Part shown: positions 8,181 to 29,931 of the stretch, piece by piece
Layout of the letters: each line of letters opens with the position of its first letter
Position numbering within the stretch: position 1 is the stretch's first letter
Source of the DNA: Pseudolabrys sp.
GTDB taxonomy: Bacteria > Pseudomonadota > Alphaproteobacteria > Rhizobiales > Xanthobacteraceae
DNA length: 39,263 nucleotides
Reading direction: 5' to 3'
Assembly (NCBI GenBank): GCA_019635575.1
Contig: JAHBZF010000021.1
Span: forward strand, 1 to 39,263
Made by a program: the position numbers and the translations under genes
The notes under the pieces: generated by a model
Database searches by the model: none
What the model was told of the DNA's origin: nothing
The model's input: the letters and a program-made list of their open reading frames with translations, nothing else

Positions 8181-8234
8181 TTGCCTTGCGGACCGAAAGC
8201 TACTCTACTAGCATTTCATATGTGTGCATATGAA
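8181..8234 (+). promoter_or_regulatory. Probable promoter with 20-bp palindromic operator in the divergent spacer
   Basis: A possible -35 TTGCCT (8181-8186) and -10 TCTACT (8204-8209), 17 bases apart, lead toward the hydrolase gene at 8262. Immediately downstream, TTCATATG (8215-8222) and CATATGAA (8227-8234) form perfect 8-base arms around TGTG. Its core, TATGTGTGCATA at 8219-8230, is one of five copies of the motif TWTGTRYGCAWA found in this window. The palindrome would cover the transcription start, a repressor position. The remaining 170 bases of the spacer, toward the importer gene at 8010, show nothing else I can support. Confidence 0.55.
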
Positions 8235-8261
8235 TTTCAACGGCGCGAGTGAGAAGCGAAT

Positions 8262-9119
8262 ATGCCGCACGTCACCGCAAGCGATGGTACCCGTCTTTAT
8301 TACGAGGAGGCCGGCACCGGCACGCCGGTCGTTTTCGTCCACGAATACGCAGCCGATTACCGCACCTGGGAGCCGCAGATGCAGCGGTTCTCGCGGTCGC
8401 ACCGCTGCGTCACTTACAGCCAGCGTGGCTATCCGCCGTCTGATATTCCGACCGATCCCGAACGATATCTGCAGGACGTTTTTCGCGACGACGTGATCGC
8501 CGTCATGGATGCGCTCAAGATCGACAAGGCGCATGTGGTCGGTCATTCCATGGGCGCGGCGACCGCGCTGCATGTGGGCATCCGTTATCCGGATCGCTGT
8601 CTGTCGGTAACCGCGGCCGGCTGCGGCTACGGCTCAAGCCCCGATCCGGCCGTGGTCGAGCAGAACCGTGCCGCCTCGCGCGAGACCGGCAAGATGTTTG
8701 CCAACGAGCCGATCTCGGTGACGGCGCCACGCTATGCCAACGGCCCGACGCGGCAGACGCACAAGAACAAGGATCCGCGCGGCTTCGCGCATTTCGTGCA
8801 GATGCTGAGCGAGCATTCGGCGGTCGGCCATTCGCTGACCATGATCAATCTGCAGGCGCGCCGGCCGACGCTCTACGAAATGGAAGCCGACCTCAAGGCG
8901 TTCAAGCCGCCGCTTCTCGTGATCGTTGGCGACGAGGACGACTGGTGCGTCGATGCCAGCATCTATCTGCGTCGTACGGTGCCGACGGCCGGTCTGATGG
9001 TGATCCCGCGTTCGGGACACACCATCACCAGCGAGGAGCCGGACAAGTTCAACGCGGCGTTGGCCGAACTGTTCGCCGACGCCGAGGCGGGCCGCTGGCT
9101 CGCCCACAAACCCGCTTAA
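8262..9119 (+). CDS. Alpha/beta hydrolase
   Basis: Soluble alpha/beta-hydrolase-fold enzyme of 285 residues. The nucleophile elbow GHSMG puts the catalytic serine at 96; the acid is D224 or D227 in the VGDEDDW segment and the histidine is H253 in SGHT. The oxyanion loop reads VHEYAADYRTW (26-36), with HEY instead of the common HGF. Family members cleave esters, lactones or carbon-carbon bonds (meta-cleavage products, enol-lactones); the exact reaction is not visible. ATG 8262 is the start; the ribosome-binding site is weak (GAGAAG). It is followed 17 bases later by the SDR gene, so the two form an operon under the 8181-8234 control region. Confidence 0.92.
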   Translation: MPHVTASDGTRLYYEEAGTGTPVVFVHEYAADYRTWEPQMQRFSRSHRCVTYSQRGYPPSDIPTDPERYLQDVFRDDVIAVMDALKIDKAHVVGHSMGAATALHVGIRYPDRCLSVTAAGCGYGSSPDPAVVEQNRAASRETGKMFANEPISVTAPRYANGPTRQTHKNKDPRGFAHFVQMLSEHSAVGHSLTMINLQARRPTLYEMEADLKAFKPPLLVIVGDEDDWCVDASIYLRRTVPTAGLMVIPRSGHTITSEEPDKFNAALAELFADAEAGRWLAHKPA

Positions 9120-9136
9120 CCGAGGAGAGACGGACC

Positions 9137-9949
9137 ATGGATCTCAAACTCAAGGGCAAGACCGCCGTTGTCACCGGCGGCAGCGAAGGCATCGGCAAGG
9201 GCATCGCGCTGACGCTTGCACGGGAAGGCGTCGATGTCGCGATCTGCGCGCGGCGCATGGAGCCGCTGAAGGCGGCTGCGGAGGAAATCGCCAAGGCCAC
9301 CGGCCGCAAGATCGTGCCGATCACCGCCGATCTGCGCAGCGATGCCGACGCCAAGAAGTTCATTGCCGAGGCGCACAAGGCGCTTGGCCGCATCGATATC
9401 ATGGTCAACAATGCCGGTTCGGCCGCCGGCGGCGTGATCGAGCATCTCAGCGAGGACGACTGGGAGAAGGGGCTGCAGCTCAAATTCATGGGCTATGTGC
9501 GCTGCCTGCGCTACGTGCTGCCGATCATGGTCAAGCAAAACGGCGGCCGTGTTGTCAATTTGATCGGCAATGACGGCGTCAAGCCGTCCTATTGGGAAAT
9601 CTGCCCCGGCGCGGCCAACGCCGCCGGCCAGAACCTGACGAAATCGCTTGCCGGCCAGTACGGCAGCCACGGCATCAGCTTCTGCGCCGTCAATCCGGGC
9701 CCGGTGCGCACCGAGCGCTGGGCTGGCCTGGTGGACGCCATGGCGCGCGACATGAAGATTTCGCGCGAGGAAGCCGACAAGCTGGCGCCGGCGTCGATCC
9801 CGCTCGGCCGCATCGCCGAGGTGGAAGAGGTCGCCAATCTGGTCGTGATGATGGCCTCGCCGCTGATGCACATGGCCAACGGCACGATGATCGAGATCGA
9901 CGGCGGCCAGGACAAGCCGCTGATGGATCGCTTCCGCGACAAAAAGTGA
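9137..9949 (+). CDS. SDR family protein with atypical active site
   Basis: Rossmann-fold protein of 270 residues from the short-chain dehydrogenase/reductase family. The cofactor motif TGGSEGIG (13-20) and NNAG (91-94) are intact, and the C-terminal segment ends in GGQD as in classical SDRs. The catalytic positions are not canonical: where YxxxK is expected, the sequence reads CPGAANAAGQN, giving P157 and N161, and the expected serine around 145 is absent (LIGNDG). Y152 lies nearby but is not followed by lysine. ATG 9137 is chosen because AGGAGA lies nine bases upstream; the ORF continues upstream to 8945 but overlaps the hydrolase gene. It may be a divergent oxidoreductase or a non-redox member. 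A GC-rich stem-loop follows at 9961. Confidence 0.9.
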   Translation: MDLKLKGKTAVVTGGSEGIGKGIALTLAREGVDVAICARRMEPLKAAAEEIAKATGRKIVPITADLRSDADAKKFIAEAHKALGRIDIMVNNAGSAAGGVIEHLSEDDWEKGLQLKFMGYVRCLRYVLPIMVKQNGGRVVNLIGNDGVKPSYWEICPGAANAAGQNLTKSLAGQYGSHGISFCAVNPGPVRTERWAGLVDAMARDMKISREEADKLAPASIPLGRIAEVEEVANLVVMMASPLMHMANGTMIEIDGGQDKPLMDRFRDKK

Positions 9950-10002: not shown

Positions 10003-10042
10003 TTGACAGGTTAGAAGACCGGTCGGACACTTTGCGCACATA
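10003..10042 (+). promoter_or_regulatory. Probable promoter and operator of the second Liv operon
   Basis: TTGACA (10003-10008) and GACACT (10026-10031) are 17 bases apart, a good sigma-70-type -35 with a poorer -10. The last base of the -10 begins TTTGCGCACATA (10031-10042), the reverse-orientation copy of the TWTGTRYGCAWA motif also seen at four other promoters here. The livJ gene starts at 10125, leaving a leader of about 85 bases. Confidence 0.5.
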
Positions 10043-10124
10043 CATTCGCCGGCCGGACGCGAATTTCGGACCTTCACACGAGCATGCGTGCGCCGTCGTC
10101 GAGGCCACGCGGGGGATGTAACCA

Positions 10125-11351
10125 ATGTACGACCGTCATCTGCACAAGCGTTACCTGCTGACCGTCGCGCTCGCCGGTGCTGCCGCGATCGCTCTGTTTC
10201 GTCCCGCGTCCGCGCAGGACACCATCAAGATCGGCGAACTGAACAGCTACAAGTCGCAGCCGGCGTTCCTCGATCCCTACAAGAAGGGCTGGGAACTGGC
10301 GATCGAAGAGATCAACGCCAAGGGGGGCGTGCTCGGCAAGAAACTCGAAGTGGTCTCGCGTGACGACGGCGCCAATCCGGGCGAGGCGGTGCGTGTCGCC
10401 GAGGAGCTCGTCACCCGCGAAGGCGTGCCGCTGATTTCCGGTACCTTCCTGTCGCATATCGGTCTGGCGGTGACGAATTTCGCCGGCCAGAAGAAGGTGT
10501 TCTTCCTCGCCGCCGAGCCGCTGACCGACAAGATCACCTGGCAGAACGGCAACAAATACACGTATCGCCTGCGCTCCTCGACCTACATGCAGGTGGCGAT
10601 GCTGATGCCCGCCGCGAAAGACCTCAAGGCGAAGCGCTGGGCGCTGGTCTATCCGAACTTCGAATATGGCCAGTCGGCGGCCGAGAATTTCAAGGCGCTG
10701 ATGAAGAAGGCGCAACCGGACGTGGAATTCGTCACCGAGCAGGCGCCGCCGCTCGGCAAGATCGACGCCGGCGCGGTGGCGCAGGCGATCGACGACGCCA
10801 AGCCGGACGCGATCTTCAACGTGCTGTTCGCCGGCGATCTCGCCAAGTTCGTGCGCGAGGGCAACACCCGCGGCGTGTTCAAAAATCGCCCGGTGGTGAG
10901 CCTGTTGTCCGGCGAGCCGGAATATCTCGATCCGCTGAAGGACGAGGCGCCGGTCGGCTGGATCGTCACCGGCTATCCGCAGGACAAAATCAATACGCCG
11001 GAGCACAAGGCGTTCCGCGACGCCTATATGAAGAAGTTCAACGACTATCCGCGTCTCGGCTCGATCGTCGGCTACGCGACGATGAAGTCGCTCGCGGCCG
11101 GCATCGCCAAGGCCGGCTCGACCGACACCGAGAAGCTGGTGACGGCATTCGCCGGTCTCAAGGTCGATAGCCCGTTCGGGCCGTTCATCTATCGCGCCAG
11201 CGATCATCAGGCGACCATGGGCGCCTATGTCGGCAAGATCGCGCTGGAGAACGGCAAGGGCACCATGACCGACTTCAAATATGTCGACGGCGCGGATGTG
11301 CTGCCGCCCGACGATGAAGTGAAGAAGCTGCGCCCGGCGGGCGCGAACTGA
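10125..11351 (+). CDS. livJ: Liv-type ABC transporter substrate-binding protein, periplasmic
   Basis: Periplasmic type I binding protein (Peripla_BP_6) of 408 residues. A basic start (MYDRHLHKRY), hydrophobic residues 11-25 and cleavage after ASA at about 30 form the signal peptide; the mature protein opens QDTIKIGELNSYKSQPAF. ATG 10125 follows GGGGGAT at a suitable distance. It heads the operon livJ, livHM fusion, livG, livF. It is clearly different in sequence from the binding proteins at 390 and 30064, so it probably binds another ligand. A very stable stem-loop between it and the permease gene (11370-11396) probably lowers permease expression relative to the binding protein. Confidence 0.92.
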   Translation: MYDRHLHKRYLLTVALAGAAAIALFRPASAQDTIKIGELNSYKSQPAFLDPYKKGWELAIEEINAKGGVLGKKLEVVSRDDGANPGEAVRVAEELVTREGVPLISGTFLSHIGLAVTNFAGQKKVFFLAAEPLTDKITWQNGNKYTYRLRSSTYMQVAMLMPAAKDLKAKRWALVYPNFEYGQSAAENFKALMKKAQPDVEFVTEQAPPLGKIDAGAVAQAIDDAKPDAIFNVLFAGDLAKFVREGNTRGVFKNRPVVSLLSGEPEYLDPLKDEAPVGWIVTGYPQDKINTPEHKAFRDAYMKKFNDYPRLGSIVGYATMKSLAAGIAKAGSTDTEKLVTAFAGLKVDSPFGPFIYRASDHQATMGAYVGKIALENGKGTMTDFKYVDGADVLPPDDEVKKLRPAGAN

Positions 11352-11369
11352 TCGCTGACGTGACGCATC

Positions 11370-11396
11370 GTCTCTCCCCGGCACTCGGGGAGAGAC
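11370..11396 (+). terminator. 11-bp perfect stem-loop between livJ and the fused permease gene, covering its ribosome-binding site
   Basis: GTCTCTCCCCG (11370-11380) pairs perfectly with CGGGGAGAGAC (11386-11396) around GCACT. The 3' arm contains GGGGAGAG (11387-11394), the only good Shine-Dalgarno sequence before ATG 11407. There is no T-run. It may act as a translational block, an attenuator or a 3' stabiliser for the livJ message. Confidence 0.6.
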
Positions 11397-11406
11397 ACCG
11401 CCTCAC

Positions 11407-13293
11407 ATGAATGTCAGCGGATTCATTTTTCAGGCGCTCAACGGCCTGTCATCGGCATCCGGCCTGTTCTTCGTGGCGGCCGGCCTGTCGCTGATTTTTG
11501 GCGTCACCCGCATCGTCAATATCGCCCATGGGTCCCTCTATATGCTCGGGACCTATATCGCCTATTCGCTGGCGACGAAGATCGGCGGCGGCTTCGGCTT
11601 CTGGGGCGGCATCGTCATCACCGCGTGCCTCGTCGGTCTGCTCGGCGCGGCCATCGAATTCGTGCTGCTGCGACGTATCTACCGCGCGCCCGAACTGTTC
11701 CAGCTCCTCGCCACCTTCGCGCTGATCCTGATCATCAATGACGCGACCCTGTGGCTGTGGGGGCCGGAAGACCTGCTCGGTCCGCGCGCCCCCGGCATGC
11801 GCGACGCCATCGAGATCTTCGGCCGGCGGTTGCCGACCTATGATCTGTTCCTGATCATCATCGCGCCGGTCGTGCTGTGGATTCTGCATCTCGGTCTGGC
11901 GCGCACGCGCTTCGGCCGGCTGGTGCGCGCGGCGACGCAAGACCGCGAGATGGTCGGCGCGCTCGGCGTCAACCAGGCAATGCTGTTCACCGCCGTGTTC
12001 GCGCTCGGCTCGTTCCTCGCCGGGCTCGGTGGCGCGCTGCAGGTGGCGCGCGAGCCGGCCAACCTGGCGATGGACCTCACCGTGATCGGCGACGCCTTCG
12101 TCGTCGTCGTGGTCGGCGGCATGGGCTCGATCACCGGCGCGTATCTCGCCGCTGTGATCATCGCCGAGGTCAAGGCGCTGTGCATCGCCATCGGCACGGT
12201 GTCGATGTTCGGCATGTCGCTCAATTTTTCAAAGTTCACGCTGGTCGCGGAATTTCTGGTGATGGCGGCCGTGTTGATCGCGCGGCCTTACGGTCTGCTC
12301 GGCCGTCCGCAAGGGGCGGTGCGTGGCGTCGCCGACCCGGAAGACCCGATGCGCCCGGCGACGCCGGCGCTGAAATTCCTCGGCGTGGTCGTGCTGGGCT
12401 CGCTGATGGCGATGCCGCTGATAGCGCAAGGCTCGCCCTATGTGCTGATCCTCGGTATCGACGTGATGATCGCGGTGCTGTTCGCGGCGAGCCTGCATTT
12501 CATTATGGGGCCAGGCGGTATGCACTCGTTCGGCCATGCCGCTTATTTCGGTCTTGGTGCCTATGGTGCGGCGCTGCTGGTGAAATGGCTCGCCGCGCCC
12601 ATGGGATTGGCGCTGCTGGCGGCGCCGATCACGGCGCTCCTCGGCGCGCTGCTGTTCGGCTGGTTCGCGGTGCGGCTGTCTGGTGTCTATCTGGCGATGC
12701 TGACGCTGGCCTTCGCACAGATTGTCTGGGCCGCCGTGTTCCAATGGGAAGACCTCACCGGCGGATCGAACGGTGTCATCGGCGTCTGGCCGCCGGCTCC
12801 GTTCAACAACAGCAGTGTCTATTTCATCCTGGTGCTGCTGCTCACGGTAATCGGCGTGCTCGCCTTGCGCCGCATTCTCTTTGCCCCGTTCGGTTATGCC
12901 ATGCGCGCCGGCCGTGATTCGCCGCTGCGCGCCGAGGCGATCGGCATCGATGTGAAACGCGTGCACTGGCTCGGCTTTGCCATCGCCGGTTTGGTGTGTG
13001 GCGTTGGCGGCGGCCTGTTCGCTTTCGCCAAGGGCTCGATCTCGCCGGAGACCATCGGCGTCGGCCGTTCCATCGACGGGTTGGTGATGGTGCTGCTCGG
13101 CGGCATCCAGACGCTCACCGGGCCGATCGTCGGTGCCTCGGTGTTCGCGGTGCTGCAGGATACGATCATGCGCCAGACCGAATATTGGCGCGCGCTGCTC
13201 GGCCTCATCATCCTGTTGCTGGTGATGGTGTTCCCCGCCGGTATCGTCGGCGGCATCATCAGTCTGCTGCGACGGTGGAGGACGGCATCGTGA
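11407..13293 (+). CDS. Fused LivH-LivM ABC transporter permease
   Basis: One 628-residue protein carries both permease subunits of a Liv importer. Residues 1 to about 295 are LivH-like (NIAHGSLYMLGTY at 38-50; the C-terminal RPYGLLGRP typical of a LivH end at about 292). A short hydrophilic linker follows (about 300-320, VADPEDPMRPATPALK). Residues about 320-628 are LivM-like, with GGMHSFGHAAYFGLGAY near 370. Normally these are two proteins (about 300 and 320 residues, as at 31341-33208 in this window). The fusion has no stop or frameshift between the parts. The gene overlaps livG by four bases (GTGA). It forms the membrane channel for the binding protein at 10125. Confidence 0.93.
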   Translation: MNVSGFIFQALNGLSSASGLFFVAAGLSLIFGVTRIVNIAHGSLYMLGTYIAYSLATKIGGGFGFWGGIVITACLVGLLGAAIEFVLLRRIYRAPELFQLLATFALILIINDATLWLWGPEDLLGPRAPGMRDAIEIFGRRLPTYDLFLIIIAPVVLWILHLGLARTRFGRLVRAATQDREMVGALGVNQAMLFTAVFALGSFLAGLGGALQVAREPANLAMDLTVIGDAFVVVVVGGMGSITGAYLAAVIIAEVKALCIAIGTVSMFGMSLNFSKFTLVAEFLVMAAVLIARPYGLLGRPQGAVRGVADPEDPMRPATPALKFLGVVVLGSLMAMPLIAQGSPYVLILGIDVMIAVLFAASLHFIMGPGGMHSFGHAAYFGLGAYGAALLVKWLAAPMGLALLAAPITALLGALLFGWFAVRLSGVYLAMLTLAFAQIVWAAVFQWEDLTGGSNGVIGVWPPAPFNNSSVYFILVLLLTVIGVLALRRILFAPFGYAMRAGRDSPLRAEAIGIDVKRVHWLGFAIAGLVCGVGGGLFAFAKGSISPETIGVGRSIDGLVMVLLGGIQTLTGPIVGASVFAVLQDTIMRQTEYWRALLGLIILLLVMVFPAGIVGGIISLLRRWRTAS

Positions 13294-14060
13294 CCGATCT
13301 GTCGATCCGCTCGCTGGCCAAGGCGTTCGGCGGCGTCCGTGCCGTCAACGACGTGAGCTTCGAGGTCGCGCGGGGCGAATTTTTGGCGATGATCGGTCCG
13401 AACGGCGCCGGCAAGTCGACCTGTTTCAACATGATCAACGGCCAGCTCCGGCCGGATTCCGGCGAGATCTGGTTCGAGCGCGCCAATCTCGCTGGGCTCG
13501 CGCCCCGCGATATCTGGCGGCTCGGCGTCGGCCGGACCTTCCAGGTTGCCGCGACCTTCGGCTCGATGACCGTTGTCGAGAACGTGCAGATGGCGCTGAT
13601 CTCGCACGCCGGCGAGACGTATCGGCTGTGGAAGCCGGCGGCGTCGCGCCATCGTGCCCGCGCGCTCGAACTGCTGGATCAGGTCGGCATGAAGGATGCC
13701 GCCGACCGCGCCAGCCGCGAACTCGCTTACGGCGACGTCAAGCGCGTCGAACTGGCCATGGCACTCGCCAACGATCCGCGTCTGCTGCTGATGGACGAGC
13801 CGACGGCGGGCATGGCGCCGCGCGAGCGCAACGCGCTGATCGCGCTGGTGAAGCGGCTGGTGGTCGAGAAGGGGATTTCGGTGCTGTTCACCGAACATTC
13901 CATGGATGTGGTGTTCGCCCATGCTGATCGCATCATCGTGCTGGCTCGGGGCCGGCTGATCGCCGACGGCGATGCGCGCACGATCCGCGAGCATCCCAAG
14001 GTGCAGGAGGTCTATTTCGGGACCGGAAAGACCTTCGCGCGGATGGAGCCGCAGCCATGA
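13290..14060 (+). CDS. livG: Liv-type ABC transporter ATP-binding protein LivG
   Basis: Cytoplasmic ATPase of 256 residues. Walker A GPNGAGKS is at 36-43, the signature region reads LAYGDVKRVELAMAL (a usual LivG variant of LSGGQ) and Walker B LLLMDEP follows. The family-specific C-terminal tail HPKVQEVYFGTGK is present. Translation starts at GTG 13290, which overlaps the permease stop as GTGA and has GGAGGA seven bases upstream. It pairs with LivF at 14057 to power the fused permease. Confidence 0.93.
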   Translation: MTDLSIRSLAKAFGGVRAVNDVSFEVARGEFLAMIGPNGAGKSTCFNMINGQLRPDSGEIWFERANLAGLAPRDIWRLGVGRTFQVAATFGSMTVVENVQMALISHAGETYRLWKPAASRHRARALELLDQVGMKDAADRASRELAYGDVKRVELAMALANDPRLLLMDEPTAGMAPRERNALIALVKRLVVEKGISVLFTEHSMDVVFAHADRIIVLARGRLIADGDARTIREHPKVQEVYFGTGKTFARMEPQP

Positions 14061-14782
14061 CAGCGCCGCTCCTCCGCGTCGAAAACCTCAACGCTTCGTA
14101 TGGCGCGGCGCAAATCCTGTTCGATCTGTCGTTCGAGATCGGGCGCGGTGAGGTTGTCGCCCTGATGGGCCGCAATGGCGCCGGCAAATCGACGACCATG
14201 AAGGCGATCATGGGGCTGATGGCCCGACGCGGCCGCACGACCTTCGACGGCGTGGATATTTCCCGGATGCGGCCTTACGAGATCGCGCGGCGCGGACTGG
14301 GTTTCACGCCGGAGGACCGCCGCATCTTCGTCGATCTGACGGTGATGGAAAATCTCGACATCGGCCTGCAGCCGCCGCGCCGCTTCGCCGACGGCACTGC
14401 CGCGCCGGTGTGGACGCCGCAGCGTCTGTTCACGCTGTTTCCCAATCTCGGCGAGATGCCGGACCGCCCTGGCGGCGGCATGAGCGGCGGCGAGCAACAG
14501 ATGCTCACCGTCGCGCGCACGCTGATGGGCAATCCGCTGCTGGTGCTATTGGACGAGCCGTCGGAAGGCGTGGCGCCGCTGATCGTCGAGCAGATGGCCA
14601 ACACCATCGTCGAATTGAAGAAGGAAGGGCTATCCATCCTCCTGTCCGAACAGAACATGCACTTTGCCGAACTGGTGTCGGATCGCGTCTATTTGCTGGA
14701 AAAGGGCCAGATCCGCTGGAACGGTACGATGAAAGAGCTTGCCGGCAATGTCGAAATCCAGCGCAACTATCTGACGGTTTGA
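14057..14782 (+). CDS. livF: Liv-type ABC transporter ATP-binding protein LivF
   Basis: Second ATPase of the importer, 241 residues. Walker A GRNGAGKS is at about 38-45, the signature MSGGEQQMLTVAR and Walker B LVLLDEPSEG are intact, and the C-terminal EIQRNYLTV matches the LivF ending. ATG 14057 overlaps the livG stop as ATGA, so translation is coupled. It is the last gene of the operon; no convincing terminator follows in the 74 bases before the MarR gene, so read-through into that gene is possible. Confidence 0.93.
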   Translation: MTAPLLRVENLNASYGAAQILFDLSFEIGRGEVVALMGRNGAGKSTTMKAIMGLMARRGRTTFDGVDISRMRPYEIARRGLGFTPEDRRIFVDLTVMENLDIGLQPPRRFADGTAAPVWTPQRLFTLFPNLGEMPDRPGGGMSGGEQQMLTVARTLMGNPLLVLLDEPSEGVAPLIVEQMANTIVELKKEGLSILLSEQNMHFAELVSDRVYLLEKGQIRWNGTMKELAGNVEIQRNYLTV

Positions 14783-14856: not shown

Positions 14857-15315
14857 ATGTCCCGCCGTCCCCGGCTGAAACTGTTGCCTGAGGCGGATGC
14901 AGCGTCCGCCTATCTGCTCGACGACCAGATCGGCTTTCGCCTGCGGCTGGCGATGCAGCGACACACCGCGCTGTTCATGGCCGGCATTCCCGGCCGGTTG
15001 ACGCAGACGCAATTCGCGGCGCTGGCGAAGCTGCTCGAGGTCGGTGCCTGCTCGCAGAACCATCTCGGCCGGCTCATTTATCTCGACGCCTCGACCATCA
15101 AGGGCGTGGTCGATCGGTTGCGCGTGCGGGGGCTGGTGGCGATCTGCGACGATCCCAACGACCGCCGCCGTCGCGCCGTCACGCTCACTGACAAGGGCCG
15201 CAAGGCCACCGAGGCGGCGATCAAGGTGGCGGCGGAGATCACCGCAAAGACGGTCGCGCCACTGACGCCGCAGGAGCAGCGGCAGGTGATCGCGCTGTTG
15301 CGGAAACTGAGTTAG
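14857..15315 (+). CDS. MarR family transcriptional regulator
   Basis: Dimeric DNA-binding regulator of 152 residues, usual family length. The winged helix lies at about 47-112: recognition helix around LIYLDASTIKGVVDRLRVRG (73-92) and wing DDPNDRRRRAVTLT (98-111), the MarR hallmark. MarR proteins in catabolic clusters of this group often respond to aromatic acids or their CoA esters. ATG 14857 has only a weak ribosome-binding site (AGG eight bases upstream). Its stop codon overlaps that of the convergent molybdopterin subunit gene by four bases. It is a candidate regulator of the shared motif in this window, but its own upstream repeats (CCATAGGTTG) do not resemble that motif. Confidence 0.92.
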   Translation: MSRRPRLKLLPEADAASAYLLDDQIGFRLRLAMQRHTALFMAGIPGRLTQTQFAALAKLLEVGACSQNHLGRLIYLDASTIKGVVDRLRVRGLVAICDDPNDRRRRAVTLTDKGRKATEAAIKVAAEITAKTVAPLTPQEQRQVIALLRKLS

Positions 15316-17582
15316 CGCGCCGCCAGCGCGGCCTTGAGCCGCTGCGGCGTCACCGGCAATCGCGTGATCAGCCCCGGCATGCCGAGCGCGTCATCGATGG
15401 CGGCGGCAATGGCGGCGCCGGCGGCGTTGACGCCAGCTTCGCCCGAGCCTTTCAGGCCGAGCGGATTGAGCGGGCTCGGCGCATCCTCGGAGATCACGAT
15501 ATCCATCGGTGGGATTTCGTGCGCCGTCGGCATCAGATAATCGGCGAAGGTCACCGACAGCGGCTCGCCGCGCTCGTCGTAGAGAAACTCCTCGAGCAGC
15601 GCGCCGCCGATCCCTTGCGCAATGCCGCCAGTGATCTGCCCTTCGACCAGCATCGGATTGACAGCACGGCCGATGTCATAGGCGACCAGATAGCGTTCGA
15701 CGGTGACGCCGCCGGTCTCGCGGTCGACCTGCACCAGCGCGACATGGACGCCGTAAGGATAGACCATGTGGCTCGATTCAAACGAGGCTTCGCTCGACGC
15801 GCCATGTGCGGCGTCGATGCTGCGCGCGACATCGGCGATGGCCATCGACGGCCCGCTGCCGTCCGCGCGCGCGATCCAGCCGTCGCTGACGGTGAGTTGC
15901 GTCGCGTCGGTTTGCATCAGCGGCGCTGCGGTGGCGAGCAGCCGCGCACGCAGCGCCTCGGCCGCGCGCCGGGTTGCTTCGCCGGTCATCACGGTCACGC
16001 GCGAGGCGAAGGCGCCGAGGCCGCGCTCGATGCGGTCGGTCTGGCCGTGGGTGACGCGGATCGTGTCGAACGCGGCGCCGAGCGTCTCCGCGCAGATCTG
16101 TGCGATCACGGTTTCGATACCCTGGCCGATCGAGGCGGCGCCGGTGATCACCTCGACCGCGCCGAATGGCGTGAGTTCGATCCGCACATCGTCATAGGGA
16201 CCGAGGCCGCTTTTCTCGACGAACATGGCGAGGCCGACGCCGACCGTTTCGCCCGCCTTGCGGCGCGCCGCGACGGTATCGCGCAGCGCCTGCCAGCCGG
16301 TTGCGTCGAGCGCCTTGCGCACGAGGCCGCCATAGTCGCCGGAATCGTAGACCACCTTGGTGCCGAGCGTATCGACCCGCAGGTCGTAAGGCATATCGGC
16401 CTTCTGCAGCAGATTGCGGCGGCGCGCTTCGACCGGGCTGATGCCGGCTTTGGCGGCGATGGCGTCGAGCAGCCGCTCGCGCGCGAAGGTGCTTTCGTAA
16501 CGGCCGGGCGCGCGATAGGTGCCGCCCGGTGTCTTGTTGGTCAGCCGGATATGCCCGACCGCACGATAGGCCGGAATGCGATACGGCCCCGGTAGCATCG
16601 CCGCGGCGAGATCGGCGACGGTGGCGCCGTGGGTGCGCACATAGGCACCCTGATCGTGGAAGAACTCGTCCTCGACCGCGAGAATACGTCCCTCAGCATC
16701 GATAGCGGCGCGGATGCGGTGCGTCTGCTCGCGCGAATGATTGCAGGCGACGAGATTCTCGCGCCGGTCCTCGATCCATTTCACCGGCCGGCCCAGCTTC
16801 AATGCGGCATAGCAGGCGATCACGTCTTCCGGATAAAGCTCGCCACGCACGCCGAAACCGCCGCCGGTGTGGCCTTCGTAGAGATTGATCGATTTGCGCT
16901 CGCGCCCGAGCATGATGGCGATCTGGTCGCGGTTCCAGTGCGGCACCTTGGCGGCGCCATACATCTCCAGCATGTCGCGCTTGGCGTCGTAGCGAGCGAT
17001 GGCGCCGCGCGTTTCCAGCGGTACGCCGGAATGTCGGCCGACGCTCAGGGTGAGCGAGACGACATGATGCGCTGCCTTGAACGCTGCATCGGCATCGCCA
17101 TAACCCTTCTCGATGACGACCACCTCGGTCGGCAGGCCGGGGGCGAATTCGCCGGTTTCGCCCGCGGCGTCGAGCACCGCCGGCAATTCCTCGATGTCGA
17201 TCGCAACGAGATCAGCGGCGTCCTCGGCGGTGTAGGCATCGCTGGCGAACACCACCGCGACCGGTTCGCCGACATACCGCACCGTGTCGCGCGCCAGCAC
17301 ATATTGGCGGTAGGGCGCGAGCCCCTTGATATTGGTGAGCCGCACGTCGATCGGCGGCAGGTCGGCGACCTCGTCGGCGGTCCATACCGCGAACACGCCC
17401 GGCAGCGCGCGCGCCTCGCTGGTGTCTACCGAGACGATCCGCCCGTGCGCGTAGCCAGAGCGGACCACGCGCATCGCAAGCTGATCGGGAAACGAGATAT
17501 CCGAGGCAAAGCGGCCCTGACCCGTCAGCAGCGGCGGGTCTTCGAGCCGCTTGCGCGATTGGCCGATGATGCGGCTGGCCAT
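15312..17582 (-). CDS. Molybdenum hydroxylase, molybdopterin-binding large subunit (second copy)
   Basis: Catalytic subunit of a xanthine dehydrogenase-family hydroxylase, 756 residues; such enzymes insert an oxygen from water into an aromatic or aldehyde carbon using a molybdopterin cofactor. The N-terminal a/b hammerhead domain opens RKRLEDPPLLTGQGRF. The molybdopterin domains show EGHTGGGFGVRG, TYRAPGRYES and, at the end, GLKGSGEAG with the catalytic glutamate at 715. ATG 17582 overlaps the stop of the 2Fe-2S gene (ATGA). It is the last gene of the operon and differs strongly from the other large subunit at 18061, so it is not a recent duplicate. No FAD or iron-sulfur gene of its own is present, so it presumably shares those subunits. 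Confidence 0.93.
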   Translation of the reverse strand: MASRIIGQSRKRLEDPPLLTGQGRFASDISFPDQLAMRVVRSGYAHGRIVSVDTSEARALPGVFAVWTADEVADLPPIDVRLTNIKGLAPYRQYVLARDTVRYVGEPVAVVFASDAYTAEDAADLVAIDIEELPAVLDAAGETGEFAPGLPTEVVVIEKGYGDADAAFKAAHHVVSLTLSVGRHSGVPLETRGAIARYDAKRDMLEMYGAAKVPHWNRDQIAIMLGRERKSINLYEGHTGGGFGVRGELYPEDVIACYAALKLGRPVKWIEDRRENLVACNHSREQTHRIRAAIDAEGRILAVEDEFFHDQGAYVRTHGATVADLAAAMLPGPYRIPAYRAVGHIRLTNKTPGGTYRAPGRYESTFARERLLDAIAAKAGISPVEARRRNLLQKADMPYDLRVDTLGTKVVYDSGDYGGLVRKALDATGWQALRDTVAARRKAGETVGVGLAMFVEKSGLGPYDDVRIELTPFGAVEVITGAASIGQGIETVIAQICAETLGAAFDTIRVTHGQTDRIERGLGAFASRVTVMTGEATRRAAEALRARLLATAAPLMQTDATQLTVSDGWIARADGSGPSMAIADVARSIDAAHGASSEASFESSHMVYPYGVHVALVQVDRETGGVTVERYLVAYDIGRAVNPMLVEGQITGGIAQGIGGALLEEFLYDERGEPLSVTFADYLMPTAHEIPPMDIVISEDAPSPLNPLGLKGSGEAGVNAAGAAIAAAIDDALGMPGLITRLPVTPQRLKAALAAR

Positions 17583-22139: not shown

Positions 22140-22188
22140 ATGATAGCCCGCCGGGCCACCAAGGCAAGATCGTTTGTGCGCATACAAA
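22140..22188 (-). promoter_or_regulatory. Promoter and operator of the nadC-molybdenum hydroxylase operon
   Basis: Read leftward, -35 TTGCCT (22167-22162) and -10 TATCAT (22145-22140) are 16 bases apart, 40 bases before ATG 22100. Just upstream of the -35 lies the palindrome at 22173-22188 with arms TTTGT and ACAAA; its core TTTGTGCGCATA (22173-22184) is a copy of the shared motif. A site directly upstream of -35 fits an activator as well as a repressor. Confidence 0.6.
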
Positions 22189-22203: not shown

Positions 22204-22932
22204 CTAACGCGGCGCCGTCCGGTCCAGCAGCAGCAACAGCGCGTTGGCGGAAACCGCGAAAACCGACAGGAACAGCGCCACGGCCATGATGGTGGCGATG
22301 TCGCCCAGCCCCATGGCGCTGGTGATCATGAAGCCGAGCCCGCGCTGCGAGGCGAACATTTCGCCGATCAGGACGCCGAGCAAGGTCAGCGAGAAGCCAA
22401 GCCGCGCGCCGGCGAGCACTTCGGGGAGTACCGCGGGCAGGGCGACATGCCACGCCATCTGGCCGGGGGTCAGCCGCATAGTCTCGGCGGTACGCCAGTA
22501 CACCGGCTTGATCTGCAGGATCGCCTTCATGGTGAAGATCGTCACCGGAATCAGGCCGTGCATGGCCCCGAACGCGATCTTGGCGGAGATGCCGAGGCCG
22601 AAGCACAGCAGCACCAGCGGATAGAGCGTCACCTTCGGGAGCGAATAGAGCGCGATCAGGATCGGCTCGGAGACGATTGCCGAGGTGCGGCTCAGGCCGA
22701 GCGCGACGCCGAGCGCGACGCCGCCGATCAGCGAGATCAGCGCGGCGGCGACGAACGCGCGGGCGGTTTCCGCGACATTGAGCCAGAACCGTTCGGTGCC
22801 GAGCAGTTTTCCGAGATGCTCGACGGTGTCGAGCGGGGAGGTCAGCGCGATGTCGCCGGCGATCCAATGCAGGATCTGCCAGGCGGCAACGATGCCGACG
22901 AGAAGCAGGATGAAGTCGACAAGACGTTTCAT
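22204..22932 (-). CDS. ABC transporter permease (SsuC/TauC-like), second of two
   Basis: Inner-membrane permease of 242 residues with about six helices and a BPD_transp_1 coupling loop (RLTPGQMAWHVALPAVLPEVLAG region). It is the last gene of the leftward importer binding protein, ATPase, permease, permease. ATG 22932 starts seven bases after the stop of the first permease gene; a longer reading to 23010 overlaps that gene. The two permeases differ, so the channel is probably a heterodimer, which is less common than the single permease of the importer at 5418-8010. Confidence 0.92.
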   Translation of the reverse strand: MKRLVDFILLLVGIVAAWQILHWIAGDIALTSPLDTVEHLGKLLGTERFWLNVAETARAFVAAALISLIGGVALGVALGLSRTSAIVSEPILIALYSLPKVTLYPLVLLCFGLGISAKIAFGAMHGLIPVTIFTMKAILQIKPVYWRTAETMRLTPGQMAWHVALPAVLPEVLAGARLGFSLTLLGVLIGEMFASQRGLGFMITSAMGLGDIATIMAVALFLSVFAVSANALLLLLDRTAPR

Positions 22933-22939
22933 CGGCGCC

Positions 22940-23704
22940 TCACCGTCGCAGCCGGCTTTGCAGCCGGCGATCGATGGTGTCGAGCACCGCATTGGCGACG
23001 GTCGCGACAATGATGACGAGCAGCATCAGCCCGTACATCTTGCGGTTCTCGAAATTGTTGTAGGCGTAGGCGATCTGGTAGCCGATGCCCTGGCCCGACA
23101 GGATGAATTCGGAGGCGATCACCCCGATGAAGGCATAGGCGAAAGCGAGCTTGATGCCGGTGAACAGATGCGGTGCGGCTGCCGGCAGATCGATCAGCAG
23201 TGCGCGGCGCGCAAGCCCCATCCGATAGATCGCCGCGGTCTTGCGCAGCACGCGCGGGATGCGGTCGAGCCCGGTCAGGGTCGAGGCAATCATGGCGACG
23301 ATCGACAGCAGCACGGCGATGGCGATGATCGCGCGATCGCTGACGCCGAACACGACGATGAACACCGGATAGAACATGAAGGTCGGGATCGCGTAATAGC
23401 TCGCGAGCAGAGGCTCCAGCGTCGCGCGCAATCGCGGGAGCGCGTGGATGGCGATGCCGAGCGCAAAACCCAGCGCGATCGACAGCGCCGAGGCGATCGC
23501 CACATCCTGCAAGGTCGAGACGATATCGGCGGTGAACTCGCCGGTGACAAGCAGATGCCACAGGCTGGTCGCCATCTCGGACGGCGGCAGCACGACGGTG
23601 CGCGGCAACACACCCAGGCGGCACAGCAGCTCGAAGACCAGAACGAAGGCGACCACGACCGCGAGGCGAATCCAGCCTTCGCGGGTCAGGCCGCCGCGTT
23701 TCAT
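22940..23704 (-). CDS. ABC transporter permease (SsuC/TauC-like), first of two
   Basis: Inner-membrane permease of 254 residues. It has about six helices and the coupling-loop segment YRMGLARRALLIDLPAAAPH. ATG 23704 overlaps the ATPase stop as ATGA, so translation is coupled. The reading to 23818 would add residues overlapping the ATPase gene and is rejected. It works with the permease at 22204 and the ATPase at 23701. Confidence 0.92.
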   Translation of the reverse strand: MKRGGLTREGWIRLAVVVAFVLVFELLCRLGVLPRTVVLPPSEMATSLWHLLVTGEFTADIVSTLQDVAIASALSIALGFALGIAIHALPRLRATLEPLLASYYAIPTFMFYPVFIVVFGVSDRAIIAIAVLLSIVAMIASTLTGLDRIPRVLRKTAAIYRMGLARRALLIDLPAAAPHLFTGIKLAFAYAFIGVIASEFILSGQGIGYQIAYAYNNFENRKMYGLMLLVIIVATVANAVLDTIDRRLQSRLRR

Positions 23705-24540
23705 GGTCGCGTGCCCATCAGCTTGAGGGATTCGACGCGCAGCTTGTCCCACAACCGTGCCGTCACCGCGCCGAAGCCGGGATCGGAGACGATGCGGCTG
23801 TCGCGGTCGCGCGGCCAATGTGTTTCGACGATATCGATGAAGCGGCCCGGCCGCGCCGACATCACGCCGACGCGATCCGACAGCATCGCGGCCTCATCGA
23901 GCGCGTGGGTGATCAGCAGCACGGTCGCGCCGGTTTCGCGCCACAGCCGCAGCAGTTCGTCGCCCATCAACAGCCGTGTCTGTTGGTCGAGCGCGCCGAA
24001 CGGCTCGTCGAGCAGGATCAGACGCGGTTGCAGCACCAGCGTGCGGGCGATGCAGACGCGCTGGCGCATGCCGCCGGAGAGTTGCGCCGGATAGGCGCGC
24101 TCGAAATCGCGCAGCCCCATGAAGCCGATCGCATAATCCACGCGCTTTCTGATTTCGGCCTCATCGACACCGGCGCGGCGCAGGCCGAACGCGACGTTGT
24201 CGCGAACCGTCAACCAGGGAAAAGAAGCGTCTTCCTGAAACACGACGCCGACGCCGTCCGGCACGCCGTCGATCGCCTTGCCCTCGAACGTGGCCGTCCC
24301 CTCGCTCGGCGGCGACAGGCCCGCGAGTACGTCGAGCAGGGTGGACTTGCCGCAACCGGAGGGTCCGACCACGGCGAAGAATTCGCCGTGGTAGAGGTCG
24401 AGGTCGATGGGTCCGAGCGCATGCAGGCCCGCGCCGGACGCCAGCGGGAACACCCGCGTGACGCCGCGCAGTTGCGCATGGATGGCGCGAGACGCTGGCA
24501 TCTCCATGCCGGATGCGACGCCGTCGGAGGCGGCCGTCAC
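23701..24540 (-). CDS. ABC transporter ATP-binding protein (SsuB/TauB-like)
   Basis: Cytoplasmic ATPase of 279 residues. Walker A GPSGCGKST is at 59-67, the Q-loop at FQEDASFPW (101-109), the signature LSGGMRQR at 154-161 and Walker B LILLDEP at 174-180. GTG 24540 is the start because it overlaps the binding-protein stop as GTGA; the first internal ATG (24507) would cost 11 residues and the coupling. It energises the two permeases downstream. Confidence 0.93.
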   Translation of the reverse strand: MTAASDGVASGMEMPASRAIHAQLRGVTRVFPLASGAGLHALGPIDLDLYHGEFFAVVGPSGCGKSTLLDVLAGLSPPSEGTATFEGKAIDGVPDGVGVVFQEDASFPWLTVRDNVAFGLRRAGVDEAEIRKRVDYAIGFMGLRDFERAYPAQLSGGMRQRVCIARTLVLQPRLILLDEPFGALDQQTRLLMGDELLRLWRETGATVLLITHALDEAAMLSDRVGVMSARPGRFIDIVETHWPRDRDSRIVSDPGFGAVTARLWDKLRVESLKLMGTRP

Positions 24541-25520
24541 AGCTTGCCTTGCAGGTCCTTGGGCAGGAACGACTGATCGACCAGCTTATTCCAGTCGACG
24601 TCTTCCTTCAGTTCGCCGATCAGCTTCAATCCTTCCGCCGTGCGGTCGAGTTCGGCGCGGTTGAAGTCGCCGAGGCTCCACATTTTCGGCGCGATCATGT
24701 TGTGAACCGCTTCCTTCGAGATCGCGGCGTCGAAATTCCACATCTTCTGCAGGATCGCGGCGGTCTCATCGGGGTTGGCATAGATCGCTTCGACGGCGGC
24801 GCGACGGCCGGCGATGATCGCGCGCAGTTTGTCGCCGTTGCTGCGGGCGAAATCGCGCGTGGTGATGCCGACGGATGTCGTCATCGGCGGCAGGATGTCT
24901 TTCGCCGCGGCGACAGTGCGATAGCGGTCCTTGCGGATGATCGAGAGCGGCTCGATCAGTGCGGCGGCCGACACCGCGCCCTGTTCGAGCATGGTCAGTG
25001 CCGGCGGATAACCGCCAGCGGCGACGCGCGTCACCTTGCCGGCGTCGATGCCTTTCGCCTTGAGTTCCATCAGGAAGATCATTTCCGACGACGACTTCGG
25101 CGAGGTGATCGCCACTTTCTTGTCGACCACGTCGGCGATGGTCTTCACGTCGGAGTTCGGCATCGTCACCAGCGTCGATTCCGCGACGGTGCGCGTGCCG
25201 ACATTGACGATGACGAGGTCGAGCCCCTGCCGTGCCGCGGCGAGCGCGGCCGGTAGCGCCACTTCTCCGTAAGGTGTGGCGTTGGCGAGAATGTTGCGCA
25301 CCGTGGTACCGCCGCCTGCGGAGCCGATGATGCCGGTGATATCGATGCCGGCCTTCTTGAACAGGCCCTTTTCCATCCCGACCGCGAACGGGGCGCCGTA
25401 GAGGCTCTGGCCCCATTGCGTGACGGCGATTTCCTCGGCGCGGGCAGGGGCCTGCAATGCTGCGCTGGCGATGAGCAGCGGGGCGGCATAACGAAGCAAA
25501 CGAGTCCTGATGTTGATCAT
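24537..25520 (-). CDS. ABC transporter substrate-binding protein (NMT1/SsuA-like), periplasmic
   Basis: Periplasmic binding protein of 327 residues. The signal peptide has a basic start (NIRTRLLR), hydrophobic residues 11-22 and probable cleavage after ARA at 28. The mature part shows the SsuA/NMT1 pattern QWGQSLYGAPFAVGMEKGLF followed by a glycine-rich ligand loop (IIGSAGGGTTVRN). ATG 25520 has GGTGGAG three bases upstream; a GTG at 25529 is possible but lacks a ribosome-binding site. It leads the four-gene importer and has its own strong promoter with an operator over the start site (25549-25594). Confidence 0.92.
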   Translation of the reverse strand: MINIRTRLLRYAAPLLIASAALQAPARAEEIAVTQWGQSLYGAPFAVGMEKGLFKKAGIDITGIIGSAGGGTTVRNILANATPYGEVALPAALAAARQGLDLVIVNVGTRTVAESTLVTMPNSDVKTIADVVDKKVAITSPKSSSEMIFLMELKAKGIDAGKVTRVAAGGYPPALTMLEQGAVSAAALIEPLSIIRKDRYRTVAAAKDILPPMTTSVGITTRDFARSNGDKLRAIIAGRRAAVEAIYANPDETAAILQKMWNFDAAISKEAVHNMIAPKMWSLGDFNRAELDRTAEGLKLIGELKEDVDWNKLVDQSFLPKDLQGKL

Positions 25521-25548
25521 GATCTCCACCTGATCCGGACTTGAGTTT

Positions 25549-25594
25549 GTTTGTACGCAAACGATAGGCTAGGGGCGGGCCTCCGGGGTGTCAA
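25549..25594 (-). promoter_or_regulatory. Promoter and operator of the second Ssu/Tau-like importer
   Basis: Read leftward, a consensus -35 TTGACA (25594-25589) and -10 TAGCCT (25571-25566) are exactly 17 bases apart. Right after the -10 lies the inverted repeat 25549-25562 (arms GTTTG and CAAAC), containing the shared motif copy TTTGTACGCAAA (25550-25561). A protein there would cover the transcription start, so repression is the likely mode. Confidence 0.65.
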
Positions 25595-27364: not shown

Positions 27365-28132
27365 TTAGAGATGCGTCGCGCCGCCGTCGAGATTGATCGA
27401 CTGGCCGGTGACGAACGCGGCGTTGTCGGAGGCGAGGAACAGGGCGGTGCCGACCAAATCCTCCGGCGTCTCCGGGCGCGGGATGCACTGCATCGCGACG
27501 ATGCGCTGCTTCTGCTCCGGCGTTACGGTCTTGCGCTCGATCTCGGTGAAGGTCGCGCCCGGCAGGATGGCGTTGACGGTGATGCCGTCGCCGCCGAGTT
27601 CGCGTGCCATCGACCGGCTCATGCCGGCGAGCGCCGCCTTCGAGGCGATGTAGTGCAGGTAGTTCGGCCGGCCCATCGACACCGCGCCGGAGGCGATATT
27701 GATGATGCGGCCGCGCTTCTGCCGGCGCATCGCCGGCAGCACCGCGCGGGCGCACAGGAACGGGCCGGTGACGTTGACGCGCAGCACGCGCTCCCATTCG
27801 TCGAGCGGGATCTGGTCGAATGGCCGCATCTCCAGCGTCGAGAAGATGCCGGCGTTGTTGATCAGCGTGTCGATCCGCCCGCACTGGTCCTCGACAACGC
27901 GCGCCATCAGCTTGACCGAGGCTTCCTCGCTCACGTCGGTCTCGATCGCCAGCGCCTTGCCGCCGGCGGCCATGATCTCTTCCGCGACATCGGTCGCCTT
28001 GCGCGCGTTGAGCTCGGCGATCACGGCGGTGGCGCCGGCCAGCGCGAATGCCTTGGCGAAGGCGCGGCCGATGCCCTGGCCGGCGCCGGTGATGACGATG
28101 ACGTGGTCCTTGAGCGATCCGAAATCGGTCAT
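27365..28132 (-). CDS. SDR family NAD(P)-dependent oxidoreductase
   Basis: Classical short-chain dehydrogenase of 255 residues. The cofactor motif TGAGQGIG is at 15-22, NNAG at 92-95, the catalytic serine at 148 and the YIASK motif gives Y161 and K165; N120 completes the tetrad. The C-terminal GQSINLDGG is typical. In contrast to the SDR at 9137, its active site is fully canonical, so it should oxidise or reduce a hydroxy/keto group. ATG 28132 overlaps the FAD oxidoreductase stop as ATGA. It lies between that gene and paaG in one leftward unit. Confidence 0.94.
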   Translation of the reverse strand: MTDFGSLKDHVIVITGAGQGIGRAFAKAFALAGATAVIAELNARKATDVAEEIMAAGGKALAIETDVSEEASVKLMARVVEDQCGRIDTLINNAGIFSTLEMRPFDQIPLDEWERVLRVNVTGPFLCARAVLPAMRRQKRGRIINIASGAVSMGRPNYLHYIASKAALAGMSRSMARELGGDGITVNAILPGATFTEIERKTVTPEQKQRIVAMQCIPRPETPEDLVGTALFLASDNAAFVTGQSINLDGGATHL

Positions 28133-29766
28133 GCGACACCTTTGTGATTCTTGATGTGATGGTCGAACGCCTCGCGCGCGTTCCACGGCGTCCACCACAG
28201 CGGCACGCCCAGCTCCCTGGCGATGAGGCCGGCGGTGATGTAGCCGGCACCGCCGGAGATCGCGCCGCCCGGATGCCCGGACGAGCCCGCGCAATAGAGA
28301 TTCGGGATCGGCGTCTTGTAGCCGAAGTGATTGTACATCACCTGATCGGCGTTGAAGGCGCCCATGAAGATGTCGCCCTCGCGCATATTGATCATCTCCT
28401 GCGTGTATTCGCGCCCGGTGTAGACGTAGCGCGCCAGCACGTTCTTGTCGGTCATATTCGGGCAGACCTTGGCCCAGGTCTCGATGATCTTGTCGGAGAA
28501 CTCTTCCTTGAAACTCTCGTAATCCTGCCCGCCGATGTCGGGATTGAGCGGCATCACATGCCAGGCATAGGTCGTCGCCTTGCCGGGCGGCGCCTGCGTC
28601 GGGTCGAGCAGGCTGAGCGGTCCCGCGCCGAACTGGATCACCTTCGGCACGCGGCCGGCCTTGGTGTCCTCGTGCGCCGAGAACAGGTCGTCCATGGTCT
28701 CCGCGCCGATGCTCCATTTCTGGGCACGGTTGATGTTCGGATCGAATTTTTCCGCGGCAAAGCGCGGGCTTTCATTGAGCGCCAGATGCAATCCGAACAG
28801 GCTCCACTTCGTGTATTGGAACTGGTCGACCTTGTTGAGGAATGGCTGCGGCAATTGCGCGCGGCCGACGAGCTTCTCGAAGGTCTGATGCACGTCGAGG
28901 GTCGAGGCGACGAACTGGGTCGCGCGGACGGTGCGGCCGTCGGCCAGCGCGATGCCGGTCGCCTTGCCGCCTTCGATGACGATGCGGTCGATAGCGACCT
29001 GTGGCTGAAACGTGCCGCCGGCGGCGATGAAACATTCCATCAGTCCGCGCGCCAGATTGAACGAGCCGCCCTGGCAGAGCTGATAGCCGCTCTCCAGGTC
29101 GAAGGCGCGGATCACCGAACCCATCGGGCTGGTTTTCGATGTGGTGTCGACCAGCCAGGTTCCGAACAGCGAGACCTTGAACAGGAACAGGAGCTGGACG
29201 TGCTCGTTCTCGAACAGGTCGCGCACCACTTCCAGCGGTTCGCGGCGCGAAACGGCGAGGAATTCGCGGCCGAGTGCCGTCTGCGACAGCAGCGCCTCAC
29301 GCTCCGCCTGCGGCAGCGGCTCGGAAAACCGCTCCGGCATGAAAATCTCGCGGGTGATGGTCTCGGCGCGCGCATTCCAGTCGCGGAATGTCTGGGCGTC
29401 TCGCTTGGAAAAACGGGCGAGATTGGCGACGGATTCCTCGAGATCGCGGCCGAGCACCAGCGCCGTGCCGTCGGCATGGGCCTGCGCCAGTTCGTAGCGC
29501 GGCGTGATGTAGTTCACGCGCTCGCCGACGCCGAGATCCTTGAACCACGGCGCCTCGGTGATGTGGAAATGATTGATCGAATGCAGGTTGTGATAGAAGC
29601 CTGGCAGCGTCACTTCCTCGGTGGAGAGGCCGCCGCCGTAGCGCAGCCGACGTTCCACCAGCAGAATCTTCAGGCCGGCGCGAGCGAGATAGGTGCCGAG
29701 GATCAGGCCATGATGTCCGGCGCCGATGATGATCCCGTCATACGTCCTGTCGAGTGCGGCGGCCAT
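28129..29766 (-). CDS. Phytoene desaturase-like NAD(P)/FAD-dependent oxidoreductase
   Basis: Flavoprotein of 545 residues in the CrtI/amine-oxidase superfamily. The N-terminal dinucleotide fold has GAGHHG (15-20) and E38 at the end of the second strand; the C-terminal FAD segment reads LYCAGSSGHPGGAISGGAGY. Despite similarity to carotenoid desaturases there is no carotenoid gene around it; the neighbours (SDR, PaaG, aspartate dehydrogenase) suggest oxidation of a small catabolic intermediate. ATG 29766 has AGAGGAC five bases upstream; the reading to 29811 adds 15 residues without signal features. It heads the leftward unit and is divergent from the third Liv operon, with a shared-motif site between them. 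Confidence 0.9.
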   Translation of the reverse strand: MAAALDRTYDGIIIGAGHHGLILGTYLARAGLKILLVERRLRYGGGLSTEEVTLPGFYHNLHSINHFHITEAPWFKDLGVGERVNYITPRYELAQAHADGTALVLGRDLEESVANLARFSKRDAQTFRDWNARAETITREIFMPERFSEPLPQAEREALLSQTALGREFLAVSRREPLEVVRDLFENEHVQLLFLFKVSLFGTWLVDTTSKTSPMGSVIRAFDLESGYQLCQGGSFNLARGLMECFIAAGGTFQPQVAIDRIVIEGGKATGIALADGRTVRATQFVASTLDVHQTFEKLVGRAQLPQPFLNKVDQFQYTKWSLFGLHLALNESPRFAAEKFDPNINRAQKWSIGAETMDDLFSAHEDTKAGRVPKVIQFGAGPLSLLDPTQAPPGKATTYAWHVMPLNPDIGGQDYESFKEEFSDKIIETWAKVCPNMTDKNVLARYVYTGREYTQEMINMREGDIFMGAFNADQVMYNHFGYKTPIPNLYCAGSSGHPGGAISGGAGYITAGLIARELGVPLWWTPWNAREAFDHHIKNHKGVA

Positions 29767-29876
29767 GGCGTGTCCTCTGGGCGTTGTCCCTGGATTTTGT
29801 CGGGGCAGCATGGCGGCTCACCCGCGCCGGTCAATGGTCGCGCCTGCGGGACAGCCCTGCGGGAGGCGTACGCCAT

Positions 29877-29931
29877 TTTTTACGCATATGTAAATTATTT
29901 CTTGACTTGGTTTTGGCTGCCGCGCGACACT
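29877..29931 (+). promoter_or_regulatory. Operator and probable promoter between the FAD oxidoreductase and third livJ genes
   Basis: The palindrome at 29879-29894 (arms TTTAC and GTAAA) contains TTTTTACGCATA (29877-29888), the most divergent copy of the shared motif. Downstream, TTGACT (29902-29907) and GACACT (29926-29931), 18 bases apart, could drive livJ at 30064; the same -10 hexamer occurs at 10026. The site could also control the divergent FAD oxidoreductase gene. The rest of this 297-base spacer holds nothing I can name. Confidence 0.5.

Follow-up and report, generated by a model that had tools for sequence, protein, structure and literature searches.

A conserved palindrome as probable operator of a MarR-family regulator over importer and hydroxylase operons in Pseudolabrys

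A 39 kb contig of Pseudolabrys (39,263 nucleotides in all, termed here the window) carries a 12-base motif, TWTGTRYGCAWA, in front of genes for uptake and catabolism. We find that the full motif is a ~20-base palindrome, roughly AWTYRTTTGYRYRCAAAYRAWT, with the 12-mer at its core; this palindrome very probably serves as operator for a MarR-family protein whose gene lies at 14857-15315. The four good sites stand at the head of five operons in the interval 5418-25529: the divergent importer 1 and alpha/beta hydrolase-short-chain dehydrogenase (SDR) operons, the Liv2 importer operon that ends in MarR, an operon of nadC, encoding a quinolinate phosphoribosyltransferase (QRPTase), with a xanthine-oxidase-family hydroxylase, and importer 2. 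The original prediction had suggested a regulon covering the whole island; the good sites are confined to these five operons, and no supported site was found in the window before the 25637-29811 operon, the third Liv operon, or the TauE-cyclase, GntR or RND genes.

The window is the entire contig C124 of a genome of 3,832,311 bases in 209 contigs that is an estimated 83.6% complete. We compared it with 43 congeneric genomes, and with a family sample of 248 genomes from 47 genera; the genomes are related, and the counts are not of independent events. Genes of the window were taken from Pfam and NCBIfam scans. In what follows LivSBP2 is the binding protein of the Liv2 importer, and hnr is the 6-hydroxynicotinate reductase gene.

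All five motif strings originally reported are present at their coordinates and on their strands, four being exact and the fifth, at 29877-29888, having a single mismatch. When the window was shuffled and up to one mismatch allowed, the mean was 0.48 matches, and five were reached in none of 100 shuffles. The exact motif is found five times in the whole genome, four of these in the window, and the reversed pattern once. The lop-sided TRYG centre by which the motif had been recognized is one common variant of the full operator; symmetric forms such as TTTGTATACAAA precede the same genes in other species. Four of the sites had also been described as embedded in palindromes. This is strictly true of the site at 8215-8234 (TTCATATG-TGTG-CATATGAA), where the 8-base arms are perfect, and the other three exact sites are imperfect. 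A first scoring matrix was built from 22 sites, with plasmid loci included, and a family-only 20-bp matrix from 16 sites of other genera. The family-only matrix gives the exact sites 29.8, 26.5, 24.8 and 14.2 bits and the site at 29877 a score of 8.0, with one match (8.7) in the reversed window; the corresponding values with the first matrix are 30.4, 26.4, 25.9, 15.2 and 8.0, with no reversed match of 8 bits or more.

How well is the operator conserved? The 43 congeneric genomes contain 120 exact sites, compared with 53 for the reversed control. Of 113 distinct congener sites in the stretches examined, 54 are found no more than 400 bp upstream of orthologues of the island genes, comprising 20 at LivSBP2, 14 at the hydrolase or importer 1, nine at nadC, eight at the hydroxylase FAD subunit and three others. 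Because this set had been collected by the motif itself, the upstream test was repeated blind, on the 400 bp upstream of 15 nadC and 30 of 41 LivSBP2 orthologues taken by protein similarity without regard to the motif. The core TWTGYRYRCAWA is present at 13 of the 15 nadC and 23 of the 30 LivSBP2 promoters, for which the shuffle means are 0.02 and 0.04 and the reversed counts are both zero; the narrower pattern of the original prediction is found at eight and 17, respectively. Conservation upstream of orthologues had been set in advance as a test of the motif, and it is seen at both genes. LivSBP2 itself has an orthologue in 40 of the 43 congeners, and this nadC in 15, six of which (G018, G041, G003, G045, G046 and G047) have two operators before it, 110-130 bp apart.

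The sites fall at the same junctions in 20 fetched loci (L088-L107), that is between importer 1 and the hydrolase, before the Liv binding protein, and before nadC or the FAD subunit; three of the 20 (L092, L095 and L096) have no site. The position of operator 1 is identical in congeners and in other genera. Operator 4 precedes the importer 2 orthologue in G015 and G010, and an equivalent was not seen before that orthologue in G020 or G008. In Bradyrhizobium no operator was found directly before LivSBP2, which there has another gene in front of it. Four loci of other genera (L299-L302; genera g56, g41, g42 and g33) have the palindrome further upstream, where CGTTTGTRYACAAACG lies between the gene of an iron-sulphur subunit and hnr, from which the genes continue to Liv and MarR. 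In G010 (L094) the gene of the importer 1 binding protein is duplicated, and an operator is found at each copy (16645 and 17924).

The placement of the sites relative to promoters suggests how they might act. The TTGACA-17-TAGCCT promoter reported at 25566-25594 exists; it is on the minus strand, reading into importer 2, and is directly beside operator 4. There is a further TTGACA at 10003-10008, before the Liv operon. Promoters were first selected for having an operator that scores 20 bits or more within ~330 bp, a choice that leaves out operator 2 of the window; among them exact TTGACA precedes the operator at 32 of 34 LivSBP2, seven of nine FAD-subunit, nine of 13 nadC and all three importer 2 promoters. 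A -10-like hexamer (e.g. GAYTAT, TATCGT or TAGCCT) lies partly within the operator or immediately next to it, these hexamer counts being without a shuffled control. The layout at the Liv and hydroxylase operons is as expected for a repressor in competition with RNA polymerase. That MarR instead binds the sites as an activator, or as both activator and repressor, is quite unlikely. Four window-type nadC promoters would be consistent with it, having TTGCCT-16-TATCAT downstream of an operator that is not over the promoter, but the operator overlaps or abuts the -10 element at the Liv, FAD-subunit, importer 2 and most nadC promoters, and the homologous BpsR is described as a repressor (PMC6837509).

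The probable identity of the regulator follows from the company that the operator keeps. A single regulator acting at these sites, as originally proposed, is supported, as are their placement in promoters and their conservation before orthologues. MarR had been named as a candidate, with the reservation that its gene has no motif upstream. This reservation falls away, since the site at 10031 heads the Liv operon (10125-15315), whose genes run in one direction and end with MarR; the Liv2 genes and MarR are probably on one transcript. The Liv-MarR arrangement is kept in other genera. MarR matches are found in 40 of the 43 congeners, in single copy except for two in G055; MarR and LivF2 are neighbours in all nine of the loci L088-L107 where both map, and G018 has MarR with no LivSBP2 match at threshold. 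In the family sample MarR is present in 136 of 248 genomes and 23 of 47 genera, and 20 loci surrounding MarR genes of other genera contain 19 sites, in 12 loci, compared with one reversed match and a shuffle mean of 0.51.

The palindrome also accompanies MarR in other alphaproteobacterial families. Fourteen plasmid loci of such families were chosen by a MarR or hnr match and all were counted, six of them having been inspected earlier; with the family-only matrix and a line of 14 bits, which was our choice, there are 32 matches in 12 of the 14, and one in the reversed sequences. In two Rhizobium plasmid loci (L315 and L323) the MarR relative follows a different ABC importer and a gene of the isochorismatase/cysteine-hydrolase family. 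That importer is preceded by two operators separated by ~200 bases, and another substrate may be under the same switch. In these comparisons the operator follows MarR and not any one metabolic gene set.

The second candidate that had been named, the FCD-type GntR protein at 2622-3431, is highly improbable as the regulator. FCD-type GntR proteins often bind TTGT-ACAA-like palindromes, and this one is encoded on the same contig; G015 and some further congeners also have it close to the island. Yet it has a match in 18 of the 43 congeners only, with none in eight genomes that bear sites (G020, G008, G056, G054, G022, G043, G016 and G021), and so is not found wherever the sites are. Nor was it seen beside the operators in Rhizobiaceae and Roseobacteraceae loci, in whose annotations MarR is present.

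Comparison with known regulators gives a possible ligand for the MarR protein. Its closest relatives in the PDB are 2nnn (E = 3.8e-35) and BpsR (6pcp, E = 1.1e-26). BpsR is described as a MarR-family repressor of the Bordetella nicotinate (nic) genes that is released by 6-hydroxynicotinate (PMC6837509; PDB 6pco and 6pcp). The two proteins share the MarR winged-helix fold, sequence homology and the geometry of a single-promoter repressor, and the window MarR retains three of the four BpsR contacts to 6-hydroxynicotinate (Tyr15, Arg26 and His32). As would be expected of a BpsR-type regulator, a predicted palindromic operator is present at the target promoters. The systems differ in that no nicC- or hnr-type gene was found in the window contig by the scans made. 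We propose that a dimer of MarR bound to the operator would bar RNA polymerase from the Liv2-MarR operon, and so restrict MarR's own production, and would do the same at the nadC-hydroxylase operon, at importer 2 and at the divergent importer 1 and hydrolase-SDR pair. The signal bound by MarR would be a small aromatic acid, for which a (hydroxy)pyridine carboxylate (6-hydroxynicotinate, for example, or an analogue) is most likely; the ligand-bound protein would then leave the DNA, so that uptake and breakdown are switched on together.

Several observations weigh against MarR as the regulator, or against this scheme. Binding by MarR, repression, the ligand and the substrate are all things we infer from sequence. 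Operator 2, which stands before MarR's own operon, has the lowest score of the four. Copies of the motif with one mismatch number 36 in the own genome and 35 for the reversed control, i.e. background, so that by themselves only exact sites carry signal. The other 59 of the 113 congener sites lie away from island genes and roughly equal the control count, whereby about half of the genus-wide exact matches are background. The core is missing from seven of 30 LivSBP2 and two of 15 nadC promoters in the blind test, and exact TTGACA is the best -35 element in none of 26 hydrolase and none of 20 importer 1 promoters. MarR has no match in three congeners that have sites (G042, G012 and G057, which are 83, 90 and 74% complete), and at the thresholds used there is no site in eight of the 20 family loci and two of the 14 plasmid loci. 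Lastly, His23 of BpsR is replaced by Phe in the window MarR and in 83 of 86 aligned rows, and the ligand of MarR may therefore differ.

Some of these points would favour other explanations. An unlinked regulator could bind the motif with MarR merely a neighbour, given that MarR binding is deduced, that some MarR loci are without sites and that three incomplete congeners have sites and no MarR match; we consider this unlikely, because operator and MarR travel together across gene contexts, plasmids and families. The equality of the one-mismatch counts with the control would suit sites that are due to chance or are non-regulatory, an explanation with next to no probability in view of the blind conservation with zero controls and the enrichment in independent loci. 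Chance is contradicted for four sites, and stands for that at 29877.

This fifth site of the original prediction was not accepted as an operator. It is weak (8.0 bits); its counterpart in G015 reads TTTTTACGTATA, in which the core is lost, and there is no match in G020. G010 has an 11.4-bit match elsewhere in the corresponding gap. The site is within another imperfect palindrome, TTTAC-N6-GTAAA (29870-29895), just before a TTGACT in the AmOx/third-Liv divergent gap, and G015, unlike G020, has this region in near-identical form.

Two further sites of the palindrome type in the genome were not counted as operators, because of their low scores with the 20-bp matrix. The fifth exact site of the genome (C205:5673, 2.7 bits) precedes a TRAP binding-protein gene that adjoins an L-lactate permease gene, a context that is identical in the sibling G015 (L113). 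At C193:11519 (6.4 bits; L305:1501-1512) a perfect TTTGTACACAAA core lies ~50 bases ahead of where an extradiol-dioxygenase-like gene probably starts; this core is possibly a further target or a chance occurrence. In L299, L300 and L316 more palindromes, TTCGTATACGAA or TTAGTATACTAA, which match the core in all but one base, are found near the same clusters; the operator may tolerate a change at the third T.

What might the MarR protein control? The conserved hnr cluster is described as including a putative nicotinate ABC transporter (PMC3511419). In its alphaproteobacterial form the cluster comprises 6-hydroxynicotinate reductase, UPF0280, PF06684, a hydroxylase, a Liv importer and MarR. It resembles the window in its Liv-MarR operon (MarR ~50% and LivSBP 60-66% identical) and its palindromic operator, and differs in its hydroxylase, to which that of the window is only distantly related. 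Relatives of MarR adjoin annotated 6-hydroxynicotinate reductase and companion genes, and two plasmid loci have, as we read the annotation, a nic-like gene set whose operator is flanked by MarR and the iron-sulphur subunit. In L300 (4081-7031) hnr is followed by UPF0280 (PRK04334) and PF06684 genes, conserved partners that are also present in annotated plasmid clusters. Every one of the 75 family genomes that match hnr (1e-80) also matches MarR (1e-25), a count uncorrected for relatedness. The window contains a hydroxylase and a QRPTase, and hnr was found in none of the 43 genus genomes with the same query that finds it in 75 of the 248 family genomes, a positive control; nicC and nicX were not searched for in the genus. 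In a tree of 46 MarR sequences that of the window falls in a clade of 23 (support 0.94), of which the fetched loci are without hnr.

Thus a nicotinate-type MarR appears to control another, uncharacterized catabolic route in this genus. The absence of hnr, the likeness of the hydroxylase to quinoline 2-oxidoreductase (the best PDB relative of the larger subunit tested, at 18061-20400) and the NadC-type QRPTase together lead us to propose that the repressor may have been redeployed over another pyridine- or quinoline-type acid.

Other regulators of such pathways are less close. NicR and NicS of Pseudomonas putida have the same general job as nicotinate regulators, and one plasmid relative of the window MarR was annotated nicR by its depositors; in the account of PMC6837509, NicR is without the BpsR ligand residues. 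NicR2, which acts in nicotine degradation in P. putida S16, is likewise a repressor on a 20-bp inverted repeat overlapping -35 and -10 elements, as described in PMC6550519, but belongs to another protein family (TetR) and has another repeat sequence. NadQ, a predicted proteobacterial regulator of NAD synthesis, also places nadC under a palindromic operator in alphaproteobacteria; compared by eye, its consensus as given in PMC5343134 (ttATRCTCannntGAGYATaa) does not fit, and a NadQ regulon was set aside. We found no published account of the present operator or regulon in a search mostly of literature outside subscription, and those of NicR or BpsR may have been published.

The features of the window are collected in Table 1. 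The hydroxylase has an FAD subunit, two molybdopterin large subunits and a 2Fe-2S subunit, and the importer 2 binding protein has orthologues that are 97% identical in G015 and 81-86% in G020, G008 and G010. Outside the five operons, an open reading frame at 1713-2585 has a weak NMT1 match and is well conserved in G015 and G021 beside the first Liv binding protein, and the contig ends with two AcrB/RND-type efflux genes in tandem (34681-39251).

Table 1. Sites and genes of the window, with scores of sites from the family-only matrix
Feature	Position	Strand	Context or content	Basis
Operator 1	8215..8234		Around 8219-8230; between importer 1 (minus) and hydrolase-SDR pair (plus)	Exact core, 24.8 bits
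Operator 2	10027..10046		Around 10031-10042; heads Liv2-MarR operon	Exact core, 14.2 bits
Operator 3	22169..22188		Around 22173-22184; upstream of nadC-hydroxylase operon	Exact core, 26.5 bits
Operator 4	25546..25565		Around 25550-25561; upstream of importer 2	Exact core, 29.8 bits
Fifth site	29877..29888	+	Not accepted as operator	8.0 bits
MarR-family regulator	14857..15315	+	Proposed repressor	Pfam MarR, 38.3 bits
Liv2 importer	10125..14782	+	Binding protein, permeases, two ATPases; MarR last gene downstream	Pfam
Importer 1	5418..8151	-	ATPase, permease, NMT1-type binding protein	Pfam
Alpha/beta hydrolase and SDR	8262..9949	+	Gene pair	Pfam; orthologues in fetched loci
nadC (QRPTase) and hydroxylase	15312..22100	-	Xanthine-oxidase-family hydroxylase	Pfam; nadC TIGR00078, 316.8 bits
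Importer 2	22204..25529	-	Two permeases, ATPase, NMT1-type binding protein	Pfam
GntR-FCD regulator	2622..3431	-	Considered, set aside	Pfam

Our analysis provides a concrete candidate operator for a MarR group that is present in 136 of the 248 family genomes and on plasmids of other alphaproteobacterial families; the operator can be used to find more members of nicotinate-type pathways. It is possible, though we would put it at somewhat less than an even chance, that the MarR switch has kept its operator while the pathway beneath was exchanged, giving Pseudolabrys and allied genera an unrecognized route for an N-heteroaromatic acid. The hydroxylase with its two large subunits, the SDR, the alpha/beta hydrolase, and one Liv and two NMT1-type importers are suggested, equally tentatively, as its members, and the QRPTase might be included as well in several of the 15 species with this nadC. 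If true, the QRPTase would link NAD salvage to the degradation of a pyridine carboxylate. The operator also points to what is probably a new catabolic route for a pyridine-type acid, including importers and a QRPTase, in a genus represented here mostly by draft genomes.

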